A stretch of 64,000 nt of DNA from Geothrix limicola (lineage in GTDB: Bacteria; Acidobacteriota; Holophagae; Holophagales; Holophagaceae): positions 124,491 through 188,490 of the forward strand of contig NZ_BSDE01000006.1 of NCBI RefSeq assembly GCF_030268085.1, given 5' to 3'. Made by a program: the position numbers and the translations under genes. This document shows positions 23,981 through 36,958 of the stretch, piece by piece (within the stretch, counting starts at the first letter, position 1; every line of letters begins with the position of its first letter). The notes beneath the pieces were generated by a model. The model was given only the letters and a program-made list of their open reading frames with translations, did no database searches and was not told where the DNA came from.

Positions 23981-26900
23981 CTAGGGCATCGTGATGATGC
24001 CCGAGGTCGTTTCGGCATAACCGTAGGACCCGGCTTCGATGACGCCGAAGGGGGCCGAGGTCGGATCCCAGCTCGGCGATGCAATGGCGCGGACGCAGAC
24101 CGTGTAGGTATGCCCGGAGGCCAGCAGCCCCGGAGGCACCTGAATGGAGGTGCCCGAAGTGTAGAGGTAGGCCACGAAGCTTTCGGCCGTGGCCCCTCCG
24201 GAGGCGGTCAACTCATACAGGGTGATGCGGTAGCCCTTGGCGCCCGTGGACGGCGCGATCCAGGAGAGGGTGTGCGTGGCCAGGGACGGGGCCGGGGCCG
24301 TGATATCTCCCGCGCAGCCTGCCCCATTGATCTGGAGGCTGGTGACGGGCACCACCAGGGGCGTGATGGGCACCAGATTGGTCGGCAGCGTGGCGTTGTA
24401 GGCCGTCACCCAGTAGCGATGGGTCACGGGGGTGTTCGCACCCAGGGCGAAGTCGCGAAGGAAGGAGACTTCAACGCCCGTCATCGGCGTCAAGCGGCCG
24501 GCCGGCAGAGCCACATACGAGATGGGGCCCACGTTCACGTCCGTCGATCCGGTGCCGCCACTGAAGCGGACCAAGTCGACGGTCAGCCCGAAGCTCAGGC
24601 CCGTGCGGGCCAGATCCCAGGCGCCCGCCAGCACGCACTCGCTGTCTTCGATCGTTGCGCTGGGTGACACGGCGCTCAGGCAGGCCGTGAAATCCGACAG
24701 CTTCAGATTCAGCTGGAAGAGCGTTGCGTCGACCGTTCCGTCGAAATGCCCGCTCACGTGGGAAGCCACGCCGTCGGCCATGGTCAGGGTCCCGATGCCA
24801 TAGACCTCCTTCGTCACATAGACGGTCTGGCCGCCCACGGTCTGCCGCGCCGCGTGCGTGATCAGGGGATGGTCCCCCTTGGTCGTATCCACGAGGCCAC
24901 CATGGAACGAAGCGTCTGCCCAGTTGACCGTCATGGCGGTCAGCCCGGTATCCGAAGGACTCGGAACGTTCGTCGTGCCGGGAACCAGAGAGATGTTCTG
25001 GGAACCGCGGGTGTTCCAATCGTATTCCTGGATGATGTCGAGGGCCCCCCAGGGCGACATCAGATCGAGGGTGAAATCGACGGAGGTCGGACTCGTCGTC
25101 GCCCGGACCAGATCCTTGCGCCCTTGGGTGTAGCTGGCGAGGTCCACCTGGCTCTTGTCGGTCCAGGCGAAGTTGTCGCTGCCCAGGGTCAGCCAGTAGC
25201 TGCCCCCGGGAACCGAGGCCACGCTGTAGGACCCGTCCCCGGCGAAGGCGCCTGTCAGGGTGGTGAAGGCGCCACCGCCCGAGGGCACCAGGGCGCCGAT
25301 CACATGGGGGTCCTGCACCGGATCCAGGCTCACCTGCCCCGTGCCGTTCCAATCCATGGGCGTGTAGTTCAGGAAGCGCGTGCCCCGGATGGTGCCCGTG
25401 GGCGTCACGGTCCAGGTCTGCGGGGCCGAGGTGGCTCCCCAGACATCCTTGGCCTCGACGGTGAAGGAGGCGGCCACCCGCTCCTCGCTCGCGGAAGGCG
25501 TCCAGCTGAGGGCGTTCCCAGTCAGCGTGGCTCCGGCGGGGCCGTTCGTCAGCTGGTAGGTGATGGCATCGCTTTCGGGATCCGTGGCCGTCACCGTGTA
25601 GGTGTAGGCCACGCCGCCCGCGGCGCTGGTGCCTGGTGTGCTCGTGATCGTCGGGGCCTGGTTGCCTGCGGGGGCAACGAGGACGGACCAGCTTTGATCC
25701 ACGGTCTGGCCATGGCCGTCATCGGCCCGCAGCGTGAAGGCCACCGATCCGGACGCCGAGGGCGTGCCCGTCACCGCGCTTCCGGTGAGGCTGGCCCAGG
25801 AGGGCTTGGTCACCAGGCTGTAGGTGACCGTATCGCCGTCCGCATCCGTCGTGGTGGCTGTGTAGGTGTAGGTCGATCCGGTCGTGCCCCCGGTGGGCGC
25901 TGTAGAGGTGAACGTCGGCGCCGCGTTGGCCGTCGGCGTCACGCTCCAGGTCTGGTGCTGGGTGCCGCCCAATCCGTCGCTGGCGAGCACGTCGAAGGCC
26001 TGGGCCGCGCCCACCTGGGCCGTGCTGGGCGTCCAGGAGATCGTCTTGCTCGTCGCGTCGAAGGTCGCGCCCGCGGGCAGGGTCGGTGCCGTCAGGGTCA
26101 CGGGATCCGCATCCGCGTCCGTGGCTGTGATCACGTAGCTGTAGGGGTGGTTTTCCTTCCCCGAAGCGGGCGCCGTGGAACTGAAGACCGGCGCCGCGTT
26201 GGCGGTGGGCGTCACGCTCCAGGTCTGGTGCTGGGTACCGCCCAATCCATCGCTGGCGACCACGTCGAAGGCCTGGGCCGCGCCCACCTGAGCCGTGCTG
26301 GGCGTCCAGGAGATCGTCTTGCTCGTCGCGTTGAAGGTCGCGCCCGCGGGCAGGGTCGGTGCCGTCAGGGTCACGGGATCCGCATCCGCATCCGTGGCTG
26401 TGATCACGTAGCTATAGGGGTGGTTCTCCTTGCCCGCAGTGGGCGCCGTGGAGCTGAAGGTCGGCGCCGCGTTGGCGCTGGGCGTCACGCTCCAAGTCTG
26501 GTGCTGAGTGCCGCCCAATCCGTCGCTGGCGACGACGTCGAAGGCCTGGGCCACGCCCACCTGGGCCGTGCTGGGCGTCCAGGAGATCGTCTTGCTCGTC
26601 GCGTTGAAGGTCGCGCCCGCGGGCAGGGTCGGTGCCGTCAGGGTGACCGGGTCCGAGTCCGCGTCCGTCGCCGAGATCACGTAGCTGTAGGGGTGGTTTT
26701 CCTTCCCCGAAGCGGGCGCCGTGGAACTGAAGACCGGCGCCGCGTTGGCGGTGGGCGTCACGCTCCAGGTCTGGTGCTGGGTGCCGCCGAACCCGTCGCT
26801 GGCAAGCACGTCGAAGGCCTGGGCCGCGCCCACCTGGGCCGTGCTGGGCGTCCAGGAGATCGTCTTGCTGGTCGCGTTGAAGGTCGCGCCCGCGGGCAGG

Positions 26901-27970
26901 GTCGGTGCCGTCAGGGTCACGGGATCCGCATCCGCATCCGTGGCTGTAATCACGTAGCTGTAGGGGTGGTTTTCCTTCCCCGAAGCGGGAGCCGTGGAAC
27001 TGAAGGCCGGCGCCGCGTTGGCGGTGGGCGTCACGCTCCAGGTCTGGTGCGTGGTGCCACCCCGTCCGTCGTCGGCCACCAGATCGAAGGCCTGCGCCGT
27101 GCCAGCCTGGGCCGAACTCGGCGTCCAGGCGATCGTCTTGGCTGCCGCGTCAAAGGTGGCGCCCACAGGGTGGGTGGGCAGCGTGAGGGCGATGGTGTCG
27201 CCATCGGCATCCGTCACGGCGATGGCATAGGCATAGGCGTGCCCTTCCTTGGCGGAACTGGGGGCGGCACTGGCGAACACGGGCGCCGCGTTGGCCGTGG
27301 GCGTCACGCTCCAAGTCTGATGGGTGGTGCCGCCCTTGCCGTCGCTGGCGACCACATCGAAGGCCTGGGCCGATCCGGCCTGAGCTGTCGTGGGAATCCA
27401 CGAGATGGTGCCAGTGGCCGTATCCAACGCCGCGCCTGCGGGCTGGGCCACCAGGGAGAGGGTGACGGCATCCGCGTCGGCATCCGTCACCGTGATGGTG
27501 TAGGTATAGGTGTAGCCTTCCTTGGCGGAAGCGGGCGCGGTGCTGCTGAAGGCAGGTGCCGCATTGGCCGTGGGCGTCACGGTCCAGGCCTGGTGCGTGG
27601 CACCCCCCTTCCCGTCGCTGGCCAGCACATCGAAGGACTGGGCCACACCCACCTGAGCCGCGCTGGGGGTCCAGGCGAGCGTCTTGGTCCCCGCATTCAG
27701 GGCCGCACCCGCGGGCTGACTCGCCAAGCTAAGGCTGACGGTATCGCCATCGGCATCCGTTGCATTGATCACATAGGTGTAAGCGTGGCCTTCCTTCGCG
27801 TCCATCGGAGCCGTGCTGGAAAAGGCCGGCGCATGGTTGGGCGGGGGCGTGTTACTCGAACCACCACCTCCACCTCCACCGCAGGCAGGTACCAGCACCA
27901 GCGAGACAAACATGGCTGAAACCCATAGAGCTTGGATATTCGCCCGGGATGAAAGTGGCTTGTTCCGCAT
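23981..27970 (-). CDS. Large lipoprotein with tandem Ig/cadherin-like repeats
   Basis: A 1329-residue protein with a lipoprotein signal ending at Cys30 (LVPAC), followed by a poly-Gly tether. About nine Ig-like or dystroglycan-cadherin-like domains follow, each opening with NAAPxFSSTAP and holding TDADxDxVTL (a Ca-binding-like Asp cluster) and SWTPSTAQVG. The first seven boundaries are exactly 91 residues apart. After the repeats come a segment of CnaB/regulatory-like character (near TIRGTRFLNYTP) and a C-terminal region of about 350 residues that I do not recognise. The architecture implies a long surface stalk for adhesion or polymer binding. It is a single gene, facing an AT-rich island upstream. 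Confidence 0.8.
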   Translation of the reverse strand: MRNKPLSSRANIQALWVSAMFVSLVLVPACGGGGGGGSSNTPPPNHAPAFSSTAPMDAKEGHAYTYVINATDADGDTVSLSLASQPAGAALNAGTKTLAWTPSAAQVGVAQSFDVLASDGKGGATHQAWTVTPTANAAPAFSSTAPASAKEGYTYTYTITVTDADADAVTLSLVAQPAGAALDTATGTISWIPTTAQAGSAQAFDVVASDGKGGTTHQTWSVTPTANAAPVFASAAPSSAKEGHAYAYAIAVTDADGDTIALTLPTHPVGATFDAAAKTIAWTPSSAQAGTAQAFDLVADDGRGGTTHQTWSVTPTANAAPAFSSTAPASGKENHPYSYVITATDADADPVTLTAPTLPAGATFNATSKTISWTPSTAQVGAAQAFDVLASDGFGGTQHQTWSVTPTANAAPVFSSTAPASGKENHPYSYVISATDADSDPVTLTAPTLPAGATFNATSKTISWTPSTAQVGVAQAFDVVASDGLGGTQHQTWSVTPSANAAPTFSSTAPTAGKENHPYSYVITATDADADPVTLTAPTLPAGATFNATSKTISWTPSTAQVGAAQAFDVVASDGLGGTQHQTWSVTPTANAAPVFSSTAPASGKENHPYSYVITATDADADPVTLTAPTLPAGATFDATSKTISWTPSTAQVGAAQAFDVLASDGLGGTQHQTWSVTPTANAAPTFTSTAPTGGTTGSTYTYTATTTDADGDTVTYSLVTKPSWASLTGSAVTGTPSASGSVAFTLRADDGHGQTVDQSWSVLVAPAGNQAPTITSTPGTSAAGGVAYTYTVTATDPESDAITYQLTNGPAGATLTGNALSWTPSASEERVAASFTVEAKDVWGATSAPQTWTVTPTGTIRGTRFLNYTPMDWNGTGQVSLDPVQDPHVIGALVPSGGGAFTTLTGAFAGDGSYSVASVPGGSYWLTLGSDNFAWTDKSQVDLASYTQGRKDLVRATTSPTSVDFTLDLMSPWGALDIIQEYDWNTRGSQNISLVPGTTNVPSPSDTGLTAMTVNWADASFHGGLVDTTKGDHPLITHAARQTVGGQTVYVTKEVYGIGTLTMADGVASHVSGHFDGTVDATLFQLNLKLSDFTACLSAVSPSATIEDSECVLAGAWDLARTGLSFGLTVDLVRFSGGTGSTDVNVGPISYVALPAGRLTPMTGVEVSFLRDFALGANTPVTHRYWVTAYNATLPTNLVPITPLVVPVTSLQINGAGCAGDITAPAPSLATHTLSWIAPSTGAKGYRITLYELTASGGATAESFVAYLYTSGTSIQVPPGLLASGHTYTVCVRAIASPSWDPTSAPFGVIEAGSYGYAETTSGIITMP
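25921..27831 (-). repeat. Seven tandem 273-bp coding repeats
   Basis: The landmark CCGCGTTGGC and its variants recur at 25921, 26194, 26467, 26740, 27013, 27286 and 27559, with the next equivalent at 27832. Every step is exactly 273 bases, so seven units lie in frame with no insertion or deletion. Units in the 25921-27012 half are nearly identical at DNA level, while those toward 27831 (the protein N-terminus) have drifted. Confidence 0.9.
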
Positions 27971-29326: not shown

Positions 29327-30703
29327 ATGAATCCTTCCCTTCTCACCCGCGAGGCCTTGGGACAGTTCGCCAAAGAAAGCCGCGCAGCTTTCGAGGCCGA
29401 GCTGAAGACCCTGGTGGAGATCCCCTCCGTCAGCGCCGATCCGGCCCGTCAGGGTGATGTGCGGCGCTGCGCCGAGGCGGCCCGCAGCCTCTTCGAGCGC
29501 CATGGCGGCAAGGCCGAAATTCTGGAAACCAGCGGCAATCCCCTCATCCACGGCTGGTTCGGCGAAGATCCCAGCCAGTCCACCATCACGGTCTACAACC
29601 ACATGGACGTGCAGCCCGCCAACGAGCCCGAATGGAAGGCCGATCCCTTCACCTTCGTCGTGGACGGCGACACCTACCGCGGCCGTGGGAGCACGGACGA
29701 CAAGGGCCCGGCCGTGACGGCCTTCTTCGGCGCCCTGGCGGCCCGCAAGGCCGGCGTGCCCCTCAACATCCACTTCCTCTGGGAACTGGAAGAGGAGATC
29801 GGCAGCCCCAGCTTCGAGGGCGGCTTGAATCGACACAAAGACCGCCTGAAGACCGATGCCATCGTCGTCAGCGACACGGTCTGGATCACCCGCGGCAAGC
29901 CCAGCACTCCCGCCGGACTGCGCGGCCTCAAGGGCTTCCGTCTCACGCTGGAAACGGCCGATCATGACCTGCACAGCGGCGTGGTGGGTGGCGCGGCACG
30001 CAATCCGCTCTCCGAACTCATCAAGGTGGTTGCCGAAATGATGGACGGCGAAACCGGCAAGGTGAAGATCCCGGGCTTCTACGACGACGTGGTGAAGCCC
30101 TCCAAGCAGGAGCTCGAAGAGTGGGCCAACGCGGGCTTCAGCGTGGAGACCTTCAAGAAGGACCACATGATCACCGGCATGCGCACCGAGGATCCCATCA
30201 AGGTCATGAAGCGCGTGTGGGGCCGGCCCACCATGGAAGTCCACGGTATGGTGGGCGGCTACACGGGCCCCGGCATCAAGAGCGCCGTGCCCCCCCGCGC
30301 CGAAGTGAAGCTGAGCTGCCGCCTCGTGCCCGACATGGATGAGCACAAGACCATCGCGCTTATCCGCGCCTTCGTGAACGAACGCTTCCCCGACGTGCAG
30401 TTCCACGAGGAGCACGGCCTGGCCCCCTTCAAGGGCCACGTCACGGGCCCCTACGCCGAGGCCATCAAGGACGCCTACAAGTTCGCCTTCGACGCGCCCT
30501 GCAGCTTCACCCGCGAGGGTGGCAGCATCGGTGCCGTGAAGACCATGGAGGACATCCTCGGCTGCGAAGTCTTCTTCCTCGGCCTCAGCCTGCCCAGCCA
30601 CGGCTACCACGCCCCCAACGAGAACTACGACTGGGAGCAGGCCTCCGGCGGCATCGCCGCCTTCGCCCACTACTTCCAAACCGTGAGCGGAATCAAGAAC
30701 TGA
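29327..30703 (+). CDS. M20-family dipeptidase
   Basis: A 458-residue metallopeptidase of the M20 dipeptidase/carnosinase-like branch. Zinc-site motifs are visible: YNHMDVQP near residue 91 (His and Asp), GRGSTDDKGP near 121 (bridging Asp), and ELEEEIGSPSF near 157 (catalytic Glu pair). A His late in the protein lies in LPSHGYHAPNE. The lid domain lies between. The ATG at 29327 follows GGAG at six bases and is preferred over upstream in-frame codons. No signal peptide is seen, so it is cytoplasmic and probably recycles peptides. It stands alone after the AT-rich island and ends at a strong hairpin. Confidence 0.87.
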   Translation: MNPSLLTREALGQFAKESRAAFEAELKTLVEIPSVSADPARQGDVRRCAEAARSLFERHGGKAEILETSGNPLIHGWFGEDPSQSTITVYNHMDVQPANEPEWKADPFTFVVDGDTYRGRGSTDDKGPAVTAFFGALAARKAGVPLNIHFLWELEEEIGSPSFEGGLNRHKDRLKTDAIVVSDTVWITRGKPSTPAGLRGLKGFRLTLETADHDLHSGVVGGAARNPLSELIKVVAEMMDGETGKVKIPGFYDDVVKPSKQELEEWANAGFSVETFKKDHMITGMRTEDPIKVMKRVWGRPTMEVHGMVGGYTGPGIKSAVPPRAEVKLSCRLVPDMDEHKTIALIRAFVNERFPDVQFHEEHGLAPFKGHVTGPYAEAIKDAYKFAFDAPCSFTREGGSIGAVKTMEDILGCEVFFLGLSLPSHGYHAPNENYDWEQASGGIAAFAHYFQTVSGIKN

Positions 30704-30716
30704 GGCTGGTTCACTG

Positions 30717-30751
30717 CGCAGAAACGCCGGCCTTTGGCCGGTGTTTCTGCG
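30717..30751. terminator. Strong bidirectional hairpin between convergent genes
   Basis: CGCAGAAACGCCGGCC, a TTT loop and GGCCGGTGTTTCTGCG form a 16-position stem with a single mismatch. It sits between the peptidase stop and the convergent tail-fibre-like gene, and can serve both directions. Confidence 0.65.
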
Positions 30752-30766
30752 TACGGGATTGATCGG

Positions 30767-33703
30767 CTAACGCTTCAGCGAGGCCTTGATCTCGGCGAGA
30801 TCGGCTCTCAGGGTTTGCAGTTCAGAACGAAGGGCATCATTCTCGGCCTTGAGCTCCTGCACGGCCCTCACGGCGTAGGGAATGACCTGCTCGTAGCGAA
30901 CACCCCAGAGGGCGCTGGTTTCGTCCGCGGGACGCTGCACAGCCGAAGGGAGGATCAGGAAGACATCCTGGGCCAGGAAACCGGCCTCTTCGGTGCCTTC
31001 GGCATCCAGGATGAGCCGGCCCCCCACGAAGTGGGCCTGGTGCTTGAAATAGGTCCGAGGTTGGAGCTGCATCAGCAGGTCCAGGGCCTTCCGGATGGGC
31101 TGCAGATCCGTCTTCACCCGGGCATCCGAAGTCACCGTCACCGCGTTCACCGAGTGGATGTTCACCGAATACTGGTCCGCCCACTGGTTGCTGGCGGTCC
31201 CCAGGCTCACCGCATTGTCCTTGGCCGGAATGACCTGAGTCATGGCGCTGCTCGCACTGCTTCCGAAGCTGAAGCTGGTGAGGCTATCGCCTCCGAAGAC
31301 GGCCGAATTATCCGCCGTCGCCTGAGCGAAGTAGCCAATGGCGATGCGATTGGTGGCCGTGCCGACATCCACATCAGCCCGCGTACCCAATAGGGTGTTG
31401 TTGTTGCCATTGCCGACGTGACCGCCCGCCCCATCCCCGACCAGCACGTTGGCGGATCCTCCGCTCAAGTTGTTGCCCGCGGAGGAACCGATGACCACGT
31501 CATTGGACCCGGAGAAGGATCCCCCACCCATGGCCCCGGAACCCACTGCCACGTTGTAGTTCCCGTTGAGGTTGGAAAACATGCACAGGACACCCAGGGC
31601 CGTGTTGTCATGCCCGCTGGTGAGCTGGCCCAGGGCCAAATTCCCGAGGCCCGTGTTGTTGATGGCGTTGACATCCATCGTGAAGTTGCCCGCGGAATGG
31701 CCGAGGAATGTGTTTTTGCCGCCCAGACCGTTGGTGCTGGCATAGGCATGGAGGAAGGGCATGCGCGTGGGACCGGCGCCATCCCAGATCTGCAGGGCCG
31801 AGGTGGCGCCTCCGGCCGGATCGGCGAGCACCAGGTTGTGGGCCAGTTCCACATAGCCGCTATTGGCGTTCTTGATGTCGTTTCCCGTCACGGTCCATGT
31901 CCCGGCTGCCGGGGCTGTCCAGGCCGGTGCACCGCTGACCACGGTGAGCACGGTGCCATCGGATCCCACACCAGTCAGGCCCGTTCCGCCGTTGCCGACG
32001 GCGAGGGCCGAGCCGGACCAGTTGCCGTTGTTGATGCTATTGAGCGAAGCGAGGGCACCCAGACCGCTCACGTTCGCCACGGGCACGCTGCCGCTGGTGA
32101 TGGTGCCCAGCGTCGTGATGTTGGCCGACCCCGGCCAGGTGGACAGGGCCGTGTTCTCCACGCTGCCCAACCCCAGGTTCGTCCGGGCGGCGGGCGCCGT
32201 CGTCGCGCCCGTGCCGCCATTGGCGACAGCCAGCGCCGAGCCGGACCAGTTGCCGTTGTTGATGCTGTTGAGCGAAGCGAGGGCACCCAGGCCGCTCACG
32301 TTCGCCGCGGGCACGCTGCCTGTCGTGACGGTGCCCAGCGTCGTGATGTTGGCCGATCCCGGCCAGGTCGACAGGGCCGTGTTCTCCACGCTGCCCAGCC
32401 CCAGGTTCGTCCGGGCCGTGGCGGCCGTCGTCGCGCCCGTACCGCCCTGTGACAGCGTGAGCGCGGTGCTCAGGCCCGTCAGGCTGGTGATGTCGCCGTT
32501 GGCGCCCGAACCCGCCGCGCCCAGGGCCGTTCGTGCCGCCAGGGCCGTGGCGGCCCCGGTACCGCCATTGGCCAGGGGCAGGATGCCCGTGGCCTCGGTG
32601 GCCAGGTTGAGGGCCGGACCGTTGCTGGCGGCGCTCAGCCGTCCCTGCGCGTCCACCGTGAGGTTGGCGCGAACGTACGAGCCCGGCGTGACAGCGGTGT
32701 TGGCCAGGGAGATGGTGCCGCTGGTGGTGATGGGGCCGCCGGTCAGGCCGGTGCCCGTGCCCACGCTGATGACGCCCGAGGCGGCACCGCTGAGGCCGAA
32801 CATGGACCACACGCTGCCGTCGAACTGGTAGAGGCCCGCGGCGCCGTCGGTCTGATAGACCATCAGACCGAGGCTCGGAGAGGCGATGGCCGCGCGTTGC
32901 ACCTGGGTCATGCGGGGCGGCAGGAAGCCCTTGGTGGTGCTCGTAAGGTCCAGCAGGGCGCTGGCCGCCGGAGGGCTGATGCCCAGCCCCATGGCGCCCG
33001 TGGTGAAGACCGCGTCCGCGCCGTTGAGCGTGAAGGGGCTCGCTCCCGGCTGACCTGGCAGACCCTGGAGGCCCTGGATCCCCTGGATGCCTTGAATGCC
33101 CTGGGGCCCCGGAGGTCCCTGGGGCCCCTGCGGGCCCTGGGTGCCCGCCACGGTACTCGCCACCCACTTGCTCCCGTTGAAGACGAGGGCCTGCCCCGTG
33201 GTGGGCGGTGCGCTGGTCAGATCCAGCGGGAGGCCCTGCAATTTCATCAGGAGCATCTGGTTCTGGGTGCCAGCCACATCACCGCTGAAGGCACCTACCA
33301 CTTCCCAGGCGCTGCGGGCCTGGAAGGCCGGCACGATGTCCACGTCCGGCGTCAGGGCCTGGTTCGTGACGGTCACATGCAGCTTCAGTCCGGCCTTGCC
33401 CAGCAGGGATACGGGCAGGGGCGGCATGCCCGTGGTGCCCAGCGCGATGGCGTAGAGGCCTTCGCTCACCGTCAAGGTCTGGGCACCGGAGTTCCACTGC
33501 TCGGCGCCGCTGCTGTCGAGGATGCTGAAGGTGAAGCTGCGCGCGCCGCTGACGGGCACCGAGGCTTCCATCAACCGGCCCTGGTAGGTCAGGGTGGGCA
33601 GCGGCGCGGGGTCCACCGCGGGGACCGTCTGGGCCTGGAGCAACGGCAGCGGGGTGCAGGCGATGAGGGCGCTGAGGGTGGGCGTGAGCAGGGATCGTCG
33701 CAT
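30767..33703 (-). CDS. Secreted tail-fibre-like protein: collagen-like, tail-fibre repeats, YadA-head-like, S74 chaperone
   Basis: A 978-residue protein with signal peptide (cleavage near LLQAQ). In order it has an N-terminal beta domain (30-180); 11 Gly-X-Y triplets (about 187-219, for example GPQGPPGPQGIQGIQ); phage-tail-fibre-type repeats of the ANGGTGATTAPAARTNLGLG kind (about 430-640); Gly/Asn-rich GLGNLALGQLTSGHDNTALG segments like YadA heads; and a C-terminal peptidase S74 intramolecular chaperone with SDARVKTDL near 857, ending in a coiled coil. S74 domains trimerise and cut themselves off phage tail spikes. Here the signal peptide and neighbours point to a trimeric surface or secreted fibre, not a virion part. 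The start at 33703 follows AAGGTG; further upstream frame is shadow. It is third in an operon. Confidence 0.82.
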   Translation of the reverse strand: MRRSLLTPTLSALIACTPLPLLQAQTVPAVDPAPLPTLTYQGRLMEASVPVSGARSFTFSILDSSGAEQWNSGAQTLTVSEGLYAIALGTTGMPPLPVSLLGKAGLKLHVTVTNQALTPDVDIVPAFQARSAWEVVGAFSGDVAGTQNQMLLMKLQGLPLDLTSAPPTTGQALVFNGSKWVASTVAGTQGPQGPQGPPGPQGIQGIQGIQGLQGLPGQPGASPFTLNGADAVFTTGAMGLGISPPAASALLDLTSTTKGFLPPRMTQVQRAAIASPSLGLMVYQTDGAAGLYQFDGSVWSMFGLSGAASGVISVGTGTGLTGGPITTSGTISLANTAVTPGSYVRANLTVDAQGRLSAASNGPALNLATEATGILPLANGGTGAATALAARTALGAAGSGANGDITSLTGLSTALTLSQGGTGATTAATARTNLGLGSVENTALSTWPGSANITTLGTVTTGSVPAANVSGLGALASLNSINNGNWSGSALAVANGGTGATTAPAARTNLGLGSVENTALSTWPGSANITTLGTITSGSVPVANVSGLGALASLNSINNGNWSGSALAVGNGGTGLTGVGSDGTVLTVVSGAPAWTAPAAGTWTVTGNDIKNANSGYVELAHNLVLADPAGGATSALQIWDGAGPTRMPFLHAYASTNGLGGKNTFLGHSAGNFTMDVNAINNTGLGNLALGQLTSGHDNTALGVLCMFSNLNGNYNVAVGSGAMGGGSFSGSNDVVIGSSAGNNLSGGSANVLVGDGAGGHVGNGNNNTLLGTRADVDVGTATNRIAIGYFAQATADNSAVFGGDSLTSFSFGSSASSAMTQVIPAKDNAVSLGTASNQWADQYSVNIHSVNAVTVTSDARVKTDLQPIRKALDLLMQLQPRTYFKHQAHFVGGRLILDAEGTEEAGFLAQDVFLILPSAVQRPADETSALWGVRYEQVIPYAVRAVQELKAENDALRSELQTLRADLAEIKASLKR

Positions 33704-33741
33704 GGCGTTCACCTTGAGGAAGCAGGAAGACGGATCAACGT

Positions 33742-34257
33742 TCACTTCACCGGCGGATCGAAACCGTGGCGGACCTGGATGGCCTCGTTGGCGCTGGCGG
33801 CCGTCTTCGCCGGAACGGTCTCGCCCCCCACGACCGCGTTCGAGATCGCGGTTCCCGGCACGGTCTGCGCAGCGCCGAAGGCCTGCACCAGGTGGGGCGA
33901 GATCACGGCCGGGGGAGCCGGCGCCAGGATGGTCACCCGCGTGCTCGCGACGTAGCGCACATCCTTCGCCCACACCGCGAAGACCGTGGCGGTGCCCGGC
34001 GGGCCGGAAGCCGTGAACAGGCCCGTGGTCGAGATGGACCCTTCGCTGGCGGGCACGACGGACCAGATCACGTCATTGCCCCAGGGCGTGCTGGCACTGA
34101 ATTGAAGCGTATGTCCAGCCACGACCGTGGGCGCCTCGGGCAGCACGGTCAGCTTCCCGTTCGCCGTGCCGGCCCGGTCGCTCGAGCGGTTGGTGCCGAA
34201 GCAGCCCAGTCCAAGCAGCAGGCACGCGAGGGGCAAGAACGAACGGCGCGGCTGCAT
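33742..34257 (-). CDS. Small Ig-like lipoprotein
   Basis: A 171-residue protein with a hydrophobic leader ending at LGLGC (Cys19), a plausible though not ideal lipobox. An Ig-like BIG_2-type domain follows, with KLTVLPEAPTVVAGHTLQFSA and the turn SEGSISTTGLFTASGPPGTATV. The C-terminal 50 residues are unstructured. It lies between the small barrel gene (stop at 34267) and the tail-fibre-like gene (38 bases on), in the same direction, so all three are probably co-transcribed. It may anchor or chaperone the fibre at the outer membrane; that is inference from position only. Confidence 0.65.
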   Translation of the reverse strand: MQPRRSFLPLACLLLGLGCFGTNRSSDRAGTANGKLTVLPEAPTVVAGHTLQFSASTPWGNDVIWSVVPASEGSISTTGLFTASGPPGTATVFAVWAKDVRYVASTRVTILAPAPPAVISPHLVQAFGAAQTVPGTAISNAVVGGETVPAKTAASANEAIQVRHGFDPPVK

Positions 34258-34266
34258 CACGGCCCC

Positions 34267-34869
34267 CTAGAAGGTCCAGACGAAGTTGAGGGAGACGACG
34301 CTGGTAGGCTGGTTCTCCTGGCCGTAGTGGCTGGACAGGAAGCGTAGCTCCACCTCCGCATGCTTCGTCCACTGGCGCCCGGCGACCAGGCTCAGGCCGA
34401 GGCGGGTCCAGTGGCTGGAGCCCGCCGGCGCGAAGGTGCCCGACGGCGTCTCCAGCTGGTTCTGGCTATCCACGGTCCAGTGAAGACCGTGGACGCCCCA
34501 GCCCAGGGACCAGCGGTTCTCGTAGAAGAGCTGCTCGAGGCCGAGGCTCTCGTAGCGCACCTTGGTGGTGAGCACCTGATGCAGCCCCGAGACATCGGAC
34601 ACCTGTCGGCCTTCGCGGAAGCGGGCCGCATCGACACGCAGACGCAGCGTCTGCGACAGGCGCGAACCCCACTCCTCGCGGCTGCCCCATTCCACGCGCA
34701 GGCCGAAAGCGGGGGCGAGTCCCCCGCCGGTGGTGAGCCGCAGATCCGGAGAGGCCGGCACCAGACCGCCGACCTGGAATCCGAAACGCGGCGAATCCTC
34801 CGCCAGCAGCCCTGCCGAAGCCAGGCAGAGGACCGCGGAAAGGGCCAGCCGCGCCCAGCGTCCCCTCAT
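34267..34869 (-). CDS. Small outer-membrane beta-barrel protein
   Basis: A 200-residue exported protein whose signal peptide ends near AGLLAED. Alternating amphipathic strands follow (for example RLSQTLRLRVDAARF and LGLSLVAGRQWTKHAEVELRFLSSHY), and it ends in LNFVWTF with a terminal Phe. That is the pattern of an 8- to 10-stranded outer-membrane barrel. The start at 34869 follows AGGTG; the frame extends 14 codons further but the signal peptide fits better here. It is the first gene of the three-gene fibre locus. Confidence 0.65.
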   Translation of the reverse strand: MRGRWARLALSAVLCLASAGLLAEDSPRFGFQVGGLVPASPDLRLTTGGGLAPAFGLRVEWGSREEWGSRLSQTLRLRVDAARFREGRQVSDVSGLHQVLTTKVRYESLGLEQLFYENRWSLGWGVHGLHWTVDSQNQLETPSGTFAPAGSSHWTRLGLSLVAGRQWTKHAEVELRFLSSHYGQENQPTSVVSLNFVWTF

Positions 34870-35010
34870 GGTGCCACCTGGAACTGCCCCACAAGAAAAC
34901 TCATGGGCCACCCCGATCTGACGGCAGGATGCCGCGCGTGTGTCTACGGGGTAGGCTATCGGAGAAATGCGAACTGTCTTGAAAAAACAGTCAGCCCCCG
35001 GGGGATCCGG

Positions 35011-36048
35011 CTACCAGAGCCGCGGCGTGGGCTCTTCGCGAAAGACGGGCAGCGGGCCTGAAGACCGGTCCCCGTTCCAGGTGAAGAAGCGCAGGGCGCC
35101 CAGGTAGGGTTTGGCGGCAGGATCGTAGGTCACGGTGATGATCCCCGCCCGGCCCGACGGGCCATCGAACCCATCCCGCCCGTTCATGCCGGAACGGCCA
35201 CTGGAGCCGCTGGGCGTGCCCGTGCCACCGAAACCACCACTGCCCCCGCGGCCGCCCCGGCCACCGGATCCGCCCCGGCCGCCCTCGGCCCTGAGGGTGA
35301 GGGAGCCGCCGCGGGGATCCAGGAGGAAGCGCTCGATCCGGCTGGGGCTGGACACGCTGATCTGGAGCAGGGGTCTCGGCTCCACGCGAAGGGCCACCTG
35401 GACGTGCAGGGGTGGCGCGTCTTCCCCAGGCCCGCCGTCCTCGCCGCTGGCGCCATCGTCACCATCGGATCCGTTCCCACCCGGGGAAGGGTTGGCAGGA
35501 TCAATGGAACCGGTGCTCCCGCTGTGGCCATCCAAGCCGTTGGAACCATCCATGCCGGACCGGCCCGGGCGACCCGAGAAATCAGCCTCGTAGGCCCGGT
35601 CATAGCTCAGGGGGATGTCCAGTTCGGCGCGCAGATCCGGATGGCTGGGCACGGTGACGACGAGGTGCGGAAGCCTTCCATCGCTGAGCCGGGGATCCGC
35701 CGGAAGGGAGACGATCCCCTTCGCGTCCACCTGCGCGACGCTGGCCGTGATGTGGAGGTCCTCCCACAGCACCTTGCCCCGGCCCTCCCCTTCGGTCCGC
35801 AGGATGGTGCCGTCCGGTTGAAGGCATGAGACGACCAGGGGCGACCGATCACCAGGGGCCAGACCCGGTCCCCTGGGCAGGCTCAGCTCCAGCGAGGTGA
35901 TGGGCGTCTTCTCCAGTCGGACGCGCGCGCCCGTCCAAACCCGGATCGCCGTGCAGCCCGTCGAGGCCAGCAGGAAAGCGAGAAGGCAGGGCGCCCCGCG
36001 CCGAAGGCTCGGCCCTGGACGCTGGGGGACAAGGGTGGATGGACGCAT
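35011..36048 (-). CDS. Collagen-like, glycine-rich lipoprotein
   Basis: A 345-residue lipoprotein with lipobox LASTGC (Cys32). A beta domain (about 40-150) precedes two Gly-rich stretches. The first, about 155-205, has near-regular Gly-X-Y triplets such as GRPGRSGMDGSNGLDG. The second, about 258-310, runs GRGGSGGRGGRGGSGG into GRSGMNGRDGFDGPSG. A short beta domain lies between them and another closes the protein. Few prolines occur, so whether a collagen triple helix forms is uncertain. It is upstream of the tail-fibre operon on the same strand, 141 bases away, and probably belongs to the same surface-structure locus. Confidence 0.7.
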   Translation of the reverse strand: MRPSTLVPQRPGPSLRRGAPCLLAFLLASTGCTAIRVWTGARVRLEKTPITSLELSLPRGPGLAPGDRSPLVVSCLQPDGTILRTEGEGRGKVLWEDLHITASVAQVDAKGIVSLPADPRLSDGRLPHLVVTVPSHPDLRAELDIPLSYDRAYEADFSGRPGRSGMDGSNGLDGHSGSTGSIDPANPSPGGNGSDGDDGASGEDGGPGEDAPPLHVQVALRVEPRPLLQISVSSPSRIERFLLDPRGGSLTLRAEGGRGGSGGRGGRGGSGGFGGTGTPSGSSGRSGMNGRDGFDGPSGRAGIITVTYDPAAKPYLGALRFFTWNGDRSSGPLPVFREEPTPRLW

Positions 36049-36169
36049 GGCGACCTCGCGGGGGTGGGTTCTAGCCCGTGAGGCTAGGTCCCCGGAGGCG
36101 CCCCTTCCATCCGCCGAAAGGCTGGGTTTTCCGAATCCGGACCAAAGTCCTGCCGCGTTCGGGGAGCCC

Positions 36170-36958
36170 TCAGAAGGTGCCCTGCACCAGCCCGCCGTCC
36201 ACCAGGAGGCTCTGCCCCGTGATGTACGAGGCGGGCACGCCGCAGAGGAAGGCGATGGCGGCGCCGATCTCTTCTGGGTCGCCGATGCGGCCCGCGGGGA
36301 TGAGGGCGGCGGTGCGGTGGAAGTACTCGGTGGTGGTGATGCCCTCGGCCTGGGACTTCACCTCGGCCAGATGGATCTGCCGGTCGGTCATCACGTGGCC
36401 CGGCAGCAGGGCGTTCACGGTGATGCCGTCGCGGGCCGTCTCGGTGGCGAGGGTGCGGGTGAGGCCCGACAGGCCCGCGCGCAACGTCGAGCTGATGGTG
36501 AGCAGGGGATAGGGCTGCTTGGCCACGAGGCTCGTGATGTGGACGATGCGCCCCCAGCGCCGGGCCCGCATACCCGGCAGCACGAGGCGCGACAGGCGCA
36601 CGACGTTCATCAGCGTGGAATCCACGCCTGAGGCCCAGTCGCCATCACTGAGATCGGCGAAGACCGCGGCCTTGGGACCGCCGGTGTTGGTGATGAGGAT
36701 GTCCACGGGGCCCAGGGCCGATTCGGCCTCCGCGTGCCAGCGGACCAGATCCTCTGCCTTGGACACGTCCACGGAAGCGGTGTGGACGGATACGCCCAGG
36801 GCCTGCAGTTCGGCCTTCGCCTTGGCCAGGGCCTCGGCGCCCCGCCCACAGATCGACACGTCGCAGCCCTCGGCCGCCAGGGCCAGGGCCGCGGCCCGTC
36901 CCAGGCCCTTGCTGCCCGCCGCCACCATGGCCACCTTGCCTCGAATGCCCAGATCCAT
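36170..36958 (-). CDS. SDR-family protein with atypical SxxxR in place of YxxxK
   Basis: A 262-residue short-chain dehydrogenase/reductase fold protein. The nucleotide-binding GSKGLGRA lies near residues 15-22, NTGGP near 91 corresponds to the NAG motif, and the C-terminus ends with ITGQSLLVDGG. The usual catalytic YxxxK is missing: the aligned segment reads LTISSTLRAGLSGL, giving SxxxR, while ITSLVAKQP keeps the upstream Ser. I recall a subgroup of bacterial SDRs with this feature, so it may be family-typical rather than decay, but normal reductase activity should not be assumed. GGAGGA precedes the ATG. It ends an operon with the DUF4239-like gene, nine bases away. Confidence 0.8.
   Translation of the reverse strand: MDLGIRGKVAMVAAGSKGLGRAAALALAAEGCDVSICGRGAEALAKAKAELQALGVSVHTASVDVSKAEDLVRWHAEAESALGPVDILITNTGGPKAAVFADLSDGDWASGVDSTLMNVVRLSRLVLPGMRARRWGRIVHITSLVAKQPYPLLTISSTLRAGLSGLTRTLATETARDGITVNALLPGHVMTDRQIHLAEVKSQAEGITTTEYFHRTAALIPAGRIGDPEEIGAAIAFLCGVPASYITGQSLLVDGGLVQGTF

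Follow-up and report, generated by a model that had tools for sequence, protein, structure and literature searches.

The window analysed here, a 64,000-nucleotide stretch of the Geothrix limicola genome (contig NZ_BSDE01000006.1, positions 124,491 to 188,490), carries on its minus strand, from 34869 to 30767, three co-directional genes, encoding first a predicted outer-membrane barrel, then an immunoglobulin (Ig)-like lipoprotein, and finally a long fibre protein with a C-terminal S74 domain. This cassette is real, cellular and conserved in the family Holophagaceae, and the part of it worth following is the constant pair formed by the lipoprotein and the base of the fibre. We think it probable that the unit is a fibre-display cassette akin to the mosaic adhesive trimer (MAT) fibres of Bdellovibrio bacteriovorus (see below), in which the lipoprotein, with or without the barrel, would hold the fibre base while the tip binds.

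Conservation of the Cassette in Holophagaceae

Relatives of the barrel, the S74 end and the lipoprotein were sought in 60 related genomes, and relatives of the fibre N-domain (residues 33–132) in 100 related genomes. The N-domain was found in 40 genomes, the window's own included, all belonging to the same family and spread over four genera. The barrel search matched 22 genomes, all in the window's genus (six of them only at E above 1e-6), the S74-end search 18, and the lipoprotein search 34, many through weak Ig-type matches.

Linkage was assessed on most of the N-domain loci, corresponding to 75 open reading frames (ORFs) with the domain. The resulting counts refer to sequences, not to independent events, and many of the genomes are fragmented metagenome-assembled genomes (MAGs), with 18 of the 75 ORFs leaving their contig on the 3' side and three more leaving the stretch examined. 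The lipoprotein gene lies directly upstream of 61 fibre ORFs (a frameshifted gene in L117 is counted twice among these), while seven ORFs stand in tandem behind another fibre. Elsewhere the upstream region was cut by a contig end (3/75) or the script found no lipoprotein (4/75: L125, L132, L136 and one ORF in L154); L136 is actually preceded by another fibre, the N-domain of which falls in the adjoining stretch L100.

A barrel precedes the lipoprotein in 28 of the 75 cases. Seen from the barrel side, a lipoprotein domain occurs within 200 bp of 33 of the 36 barrels, and in the next ORF in L072 and L073; L096 (genome G016, contig C69) has a barrel with no recognisable lipoprotein behind it. The original prediction had proposed looking for the three-gene set in other acidobacteria: the linkage of all three genes is conserved in part of Holophagaceae.

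Genomes contained between one and five fibre ORFs (40 genomes, fetched loci). Geothrix is an iron-reducing bacterium, and its cultured carriers include G. fermentans DSM 14018, G. terrae, G. oryzisoli, G. paludis and G. rubra, so we rejected the idea that the cassette is an artefact of metagenome binning. An N-domain was also found on L196, a contig from a MAG that bears the label Anaeromyxobacter; this contig may belong to Holophagaceae and be mis-binned.

A Constant Base with Exchanged Tips

In a 58-row alignment, the other 57 sequences share 48–74% identity with the window's fibre over residues 1 to ~185, and 11 columns are invariant; within the N-domain, mean column identity reaches 69%. 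No Pfam family was assigned to this domain in any of the 58 sequences. Counted from the domain start, the shortest of the 54 3'-complete ORFs, a frameshifted fragment, has 304 residues, the second shortest about 318 and the longest 3149. On contig C128 of G027, L100 and L136 hold a tandem pair of fibre frames, both longer than 5600 codons (5660 and 5772 open codons); an S74-like domain ends the first.

The C-terminal ends were surveyed by Pfam searches of the final 350 residues, covering 53 of the 54 complete ORFs (one L117 fragment was dropped and the other kept). Bearing in mind that one fibre can match several families, the counts were: S74 18, Collagen 17, NHL 6, ALK_LTK_GRD 5, PQQ_2 4, YNCE 3, BclA_C 3, CBM_5_12 3 and Collar 2, plus nine further families found in one fibre each, Lcl_C and BNR among them. 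Thus, besides S74, collagen, ALK/LTK glycine-rich, BclA_C and phage Collar domains, the ends include beta-propeller and unnamed domains. Several of the named ends (S74, collagen, BclA_C) are established trimer formers, which counts in favour of a fibre-display role.

We grouped the ends of the 53 fibres into 20 classes by sequence similarity over the last 140 residues (remote kin may therefore be split) and placed them on the N-domain tree. At least 26 changes of class were needed, the least possible number being 19, while shuffled classes required 33.9 on average and none of 200 shuffles gave a value as low as that observed. Because 26 lies above the minimum and below the shuffled mean, the fibre ends show both partial inheritance and repeated exchange. 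S74 alone requires seven changes, four of them forced by well-supported branches.

Individual pairs illustrate the exchange. Among N-domain pairs at least 80% identical, 10 of 20 share the same end class. The L082 and L083 fibres of G023 are 84% identical in the N-domain; one ends in S74, and the end of the other falls in the class to which L074, with its glycine-rich ALK/LTK domain, belongs. Similarly, L129 and L134 have N-domains 90% identical and ends of different classes, that of L134 being a phage Collar domain. A further pair, L103/L150, was set aside as an example since the end of L103 may reflect a frameshift, albeit it remains in the tree-change and pair counts.

The S74 End and the Likeness to MAT Fibres

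The original prediction put S74 at the heart of the unit. We rejected this role, since the domain ends only 18 of 53 fibres: the constant parts are the fibre N-domain and the lipoprotein directly upstream, and S74 emerges as one optional ending among many. Judging from the sequences, the self-cleaving step is likewise optional within the family.

Where S74 is present, its catalytic residues are preserved. The window's motif is SDARVK, with Ser859 and Lys864 (the serine had previously been placed at 857, two residues off). A Ser and a Lys five residues apart occur in all of the 25 S74-like ORFs, 18 of which have the N-domain; the S74-ended fibres with the N-domain all conform to SxxRxK (18/18), in the form SDxRxK in seven (window included) and SSxRxK in 11. 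Because the Ser/Lys pair is intact, and by analogy with S782 of the Bdellovibrio protein Bd3182, self-cleavage at Ser859 is plausible.

A phage-like trimeric fibre displayed on a bacterial surface, with an S74 end that releases itself, has already been published, namely for the MAT superfamily of B. bacteriovorus (Caulton et al. 2024, PMC10769870). According to the main text of that paper, the superfamily comprises 21 fibres, 13 with S74, that share a conserved beta-rich domain of ~130 amino acids (aa) behind the signal peptide; surface display and self-cleavage at S782 (Bd3182) were demonstrated, and the authors presume that the N-terminal domain attaches to an element of the surface still to be identified. 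The terms operon, lipoprotein and collagen do not appear in that main text.

The Holophagaceae fibres share with those MAT descriptions a signal peptide, a conserved beta-rich N-domain, a long shaft resembling those of phage fibres, exchangeable tips of which some are S74, and the presence of several copies in many genomes. As for the ends, MAT fibres have either an S74 domain with an SDxxxK motif or a diversified tip of another kind; the window's S74 end has this motif, and the Holophagaceae fibres outside the 18 with S74 have other ends. The likeness of the N-domain is one of form, and the two domains may share a 'YQGR' start: the Holophagaceae domain's AlphaFold2 (AF2) model has strands at model residues 37–122 (protein residues 38–123), mostly at pLDDT >90 (whole-model pTM 0.55), and the domain is conserved in 58 sequences. 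The Holophagaceae cassette differs in its linked lipoprotein and barrel and in its collagen-rich shafts.

Compared with the MAT description, the lipoprotein is a new element, and it is a good candidate for the part by which fibres of this kind are kept on the cell. The conserved pair of fibre base and lipoprotein, joined by the barrel in one subtype, offers a concrete anchor candidate in a lineage with cultured type strains. Unlike Bdellovibrio, this lineage is not known as predatory, which suggests that fibres with swapped tips also occur outside predators. In the open-access literature (titles and abstract starts), none of the matches listed described such a cassette in Geothrix or Holophagaceae.

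Other known systems resemble the window's fibre in part. BclA and Lcl represent collagen-like adhesin families of bacteria; they have collagen triplets in common with it, and relatives of the window's fibre end in BclA_C (3/53) or Lcl_C (1/53), but the constant N-domain, the lipoprotein neighbour and the S74 end of the window copy set the cassette apart. Trimeric autotransporters such as YadA have similar head repeats, by pattern, whereas no C-terminal YadA anchor was detected in the window's fibre (Pfam, E ≤ 0.1).

The Lipoprotein and the Barrel

The body of the window's lipoprotein matches Big_2 at E 0.034, below cut-off; the family is matched (E ≤ 0.01) by 10 of 52 homologues. The lipobox pattern fits 43 of 63 lipoproteins, and the Cys is conserved at 90% or more in an alignment of 161 residues. 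Of the 13 invariant or nearly invariant positions in this alignment, eight fall in the last third, i.e., in the C-terminal tail.

This concentration of conserved positions, together with the place of the lipoprotein beside 61 of the 75 fibre ORFs, across genomes holding anywhere from one to five of them, argues against the alternative that the lipoprotein and the barrel are no more than co-regulated surface proteins and that the fibre is held by its own lipid anchor, by peptidoglycan, by lipopolysaccharide or by pili. The absence of a barrel from many loci would agree with such an arrangement, as would the possible interplay with type IV pili mentioned by the MAT authors in the main text (PMC10769870). 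Furthermore, a fibre may anchor itself through its own lipid, since 10 of 43 fibres have a lipobox-like Cys; by eye, the window's fibre has such a motif, LIAC, inside its signal peptide. The other 33 fibres have no Cys of this kind, and on the whole we regard mere co-regulation as unlikely.

The AF2 model of the barrel (pLDDT 92.0, pTM 0.83) reads as eight long strands, and its Foldseek matches are OmpA, Ail and OmpX (best E 2e-8, TM about 0.55). Pfam OMP_b-brl (E ≤ 0.1) was detected in seven of 29 homologues and not in the window's copy. The protein is therefore predicted to be an eight-stranded outer-membrane barrel of the OmpA/Ail type. Because barrels of this class lack a wide pore, an anchor or receptor seems more likely than an export channel, and the secretion role originally assigned to the barrel becomes unlikely.

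For the same reason, and given the many loci with no barrel, we see little chance that barrel and lipoprotein form a dedicated device for carrying the fibre across the outer membrane, even if the order barrel–lipoprotein(–fibre) is kept in all fetched loci having both. As for other export routes, two places in the window's genome match GspD strongly (E 2.9e-55 and 4.7e-43) but below the curated cut-off; secretins therefore exist, possibly of type II. No type IX sorting domain was found in the window's fibre (E ≤ 0.1), nor SprA in its genome, a search that gave no SprA match in control genomes either.

A Proposed Display Mechanism

In the fibre-display arrangement that we favour, all three proteins would enter the periplasm through Sec, as their signal peptides suggest. 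The barrel would fold in the outer membrane and the lipoprotein would be lipid-anchored, as sequence and fold indicate. The fibre would trimerise starting from its C-terminal end, where S74, if present, would serve as a chaperone and then cut itself off at Ser859, giving a mature fibre of residues ~25–858; we propose this step because the Ser/Lys pair is intact and in view of published S74 proteins. Once the fibre has reached the outside, the constant N-domain would stay at the cell surface, held by the conserved lipoprotein tail, with the barrel as a second holder in the subtype that has one. From there the variable shaft and the tip would project outward and bind a surface, a glycan or another cell.

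Several observations weigh against this arrangement. No barrel is in place at 47 of the 75 fibre ORFs, and the 10 fibres with a lipobox-like Cys, the window's included, might be lipidated themselves. The distances among N-domains correlate with those among lipoprotein tails, lipoprotein bodies and barrels (Mantel r 0.80, 0.85 and 0.74, respectively; n = 27), but any genes inherited together should show such correlations. In the PDB, no fold matches the predicted N-domain with confidence (best E 6.9e-3), and a fold search of BFVD returned a single match (E 9.6e-4) with TM-scores of 0.20 and 0.13. The N-domain has a single match in the window's own genome, which weakens the argument from a fibre repertoire for this organism. 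At 20 N-domain loci outside Holophagaceae (next section), no match to the lipoprotein, tail or barrel profiles was found (E ≤ 0.05). Finally, we infer the lipoprotein–fibre contact only indirectly, just as we infer the trimer, the surface location and the adhesion.

N-Domain Relatives Outside the Family

A profile of the core N-domain (103 positions), run on 297 Acidobacteriota genomes, found relatives in 45, of which 15 are Holophagaceae and 30 lie outside. Among the 20 outside loci examined, several N-domain proteins have an S74-like end. At six of them a short motif, '..GG..SS..Y...GT.GQ...G.SS..Y.L.SGFW' (GFW motif), was recognised by eye in a secreted protein encoded beside the genes for the N-domain (the 'YQGRL' domain). 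Distant loci with such proteins include L241, L242, L243, L254 and L260. The Pfam matches of six GFW proteins scanned do not name the motif; the protein of L245 (5154–5840, minus strand) also matches the Por_Secre_tail sorting domain above cut-off.

A leave-one-out profile, built from five of the six eye-found stretches plus 15 Holophagaceae tails, detected (E ≤ 1e-3) an ORF in eight of the 20 loci (L242, L243, L246, L249, L255, L256, L257 and L260), in every case co-directional with a domain gene no more than about 1.1 kb away, with an S74-like ORF in between in L255. Of the eye-found cases, it recovers L260, gives only 0.012 for L241 and only 2 for L254, and misses L244, L245 and L258. With a smaller training set, L242, L243, L255 and L256 were matched at E 0.003–0.045 and L257 at 0.54; L246 and L249 were not listed.

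A second profile, built from eight stretches and run on 14 genomes chosen for having the N-domain, gave 28 matches there and also picks up L244 and L245. Of the 20 matches outside training, 11 lie within 4 kb of an N-domain match on the same strand and 13 within 5 kb, about 0.06 being expected. Over the 297 genomes, 10 of 42 independent matches are within 4 kb of an N-domain match (E ≤ 1e-3) and 32 are not. With the training genomes removed, 12 of 20 motif genomes also have the domain (23 domain genomes; Fisher p 7e-10, the genomes being related).

A broader idea is that the lipoprotein tail is the surface anchor still lacking for MAT-type fibres and, with the fibre N-domain, part of an old, undescribed two-part display device, the Holophagaceae tail being a diverged GFW form. 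If so, evolution would be swapping tips onto a fixed plug and socket. We hold this idea tentatively and with more doubt than belief. The GFW gene is mostly downstream of the N-domain gene (seven of 10 near pairs), and the Holophagaceae lipoprotein is upstream; alignment of the lipoprotein tail with the GFW profile by hhalign gave a probability of 6.5% (E 0.0056); and the second profile had no match in the 27 Holophagaceae genomes among the 297.

Relation to Phages and Setting of the Locus

As originally predicted, the signal-peptide-bearing fibre contains collagen triplets, phage tail-fibre repeats and a C-terminal S74 domain, as attested by Pfam, PHROG, PDB and the sequence itself. Peptidase_S74 matches residues 859–922 (E 9.8e-10; 39 bits, the cut-off being 22). 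PHROG tail-fibre families match the fibre with a best E of 6.5e-32 (best stretch 475–976), and the PDB matches include the tail fibres 7z47 (residues 389–440, E 2.3e-11) and 8vbx (E 2.1e-4), as well as 6f45, which spans the S74 region (residues 801–966, E 5.6e-4). The YadA-head-like repeats, also part of the prediction, are present by pattern and are named by none of the family searches.

Such matches raise the question of whether the fibre could be a captured or active tail fibre of a phage, a tailocin or a contractile-injection system, not a cell-surface protein. With phage tail fibres and spikes bearing the S74/endosialidase chaperone (PF13884), it shares the fibre repeats, the C-terminal chaperone and the Ser/Lys pair, and its S74 end matches 638 phage records, all at less than 60% identity and none over more than 80% of the query. 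Moreover, 24 viral contigs match the N-region weakly, most of them in the linker; two IMG/VR contigs (L217 and L218) do so over residues 41–184 at 29% identity.

Unlike phage tail fibres, however, the window's fibre has a signal peptide and lacks virion genes nearby, and its N-region found no match in 50,697 phage records (E ≤ 0.01). Of 44 candidate stretches from a core-domain scan of viral contigs, none proved to be a relative. On the strength of these two negatives, we rejected a phage or prophage origin, and the identification as a phage-type tail fibre appears highly improbable. No phage genes adjoin the cassette, as had been noted originally, and it occupies the same chromosomal place in close relatives. 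None of the outcomes that the original prediction had named as speaking against it (homologues confined to prophages, no conserved linkage, no S74 catalytic residues) was observed.

The flanking genes are cellular, encoding by Pfam an M20 peptidase, an SDR protein, a bestrophin-like protein, a DUF2238 protein and a histidine kinase. Among these five and a nearby Ig-repeat protein, the PHROG matches (E ≤ 1e-4) were to a FabG-like reductase, a kinase and unknowns, with no structural or integrase family. The SDR, DUF2238, kinase and M20 genes also flank the closest cassettes, in G020 and G029; in G004 the M20 peptidase is a neighbour too. The GC content of fibre, lipoprotein and barrel genes, overall and at third codon positions (GC3), is inside the range of the flanking genes. 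The cassette therefore looks like a resident chromosomal locus. S74 has a single match in the whole genome.

The features of the cassette are collected in Table 1; the fibre gene is given from an ATG 90 codons downstream of the start in the ORF list. Gaps of 9 bp (barrel–lipoprotein) and 38 bp (lipoprotein–fibre) separate the genes, whose co-directional arrangement agrees with what was first described. A scan of 30600–36300 found no promoter-like sites and no excess of terminators; because it gave no signal, the operon is deduced from spacing and conservation.

Table 1. Features of the fibre cassette in the window
Feature	Residues	Position	Strand	Description or basis
Outer-membrane beta-barrel gene		34267..34869	-	200 aa with signal peptide and C-terminal Phe; 8 strands in the AF2 model
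Ig-like lipoprotein gene		33742..34257	-	171 aa, Cys behind hydrophobic stretch, Big_2-like body
Lipoprotein C-terminal tail (Q..G...N..VVGE..PA....VRHGF.P)		33745..33906	-	proposed docking piece, from conservation
Fibre gene		30767..33703	-	978 aa, ATG start
Fibre signal peptide	1-24	33632..33703	-	by eye from sequence (LQA/Q)
Constant N-domain ('YQGRL' domain)	33-132	33308..33607	-	58-row alignment, AF2 strands
Linker 'GDV.GTQN...LQG.PLDL..P..GQ.L.FNG.KW'	135-186	33146..33301	-	alignment
Collagen triplets	187-220	33044..33145	-	Pfam Collagen, E 2.5e-6
Phage-tail-fibre GGTG repeats	380-575	31979..32566	-	pattern; PHROG and PDB matches
YadA-head-like NTxLG repeats	664-790	31334..31714	-	pattern only
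S74 chaperone/protease, coiled-coil-like end	859-978	30770..31129	-	Pfam PF13884; Ser859 and Lys864

Directly upstream of the cassette, at 35011–36048 on the minus strand, lies a gene for a collagen-like, glycine-rich lipoprotein of 345 aa. We considered it as a fourth part of the cassette and rejected it, since L093 is the only one of the fetched Holophagaceae loci to carry a further copy, close to its fibre. A second large surface-type protein, of 1329 aa and with He_PIG and Big_9 Ig repeats, is encoded at 23981–27970 on the same strand.

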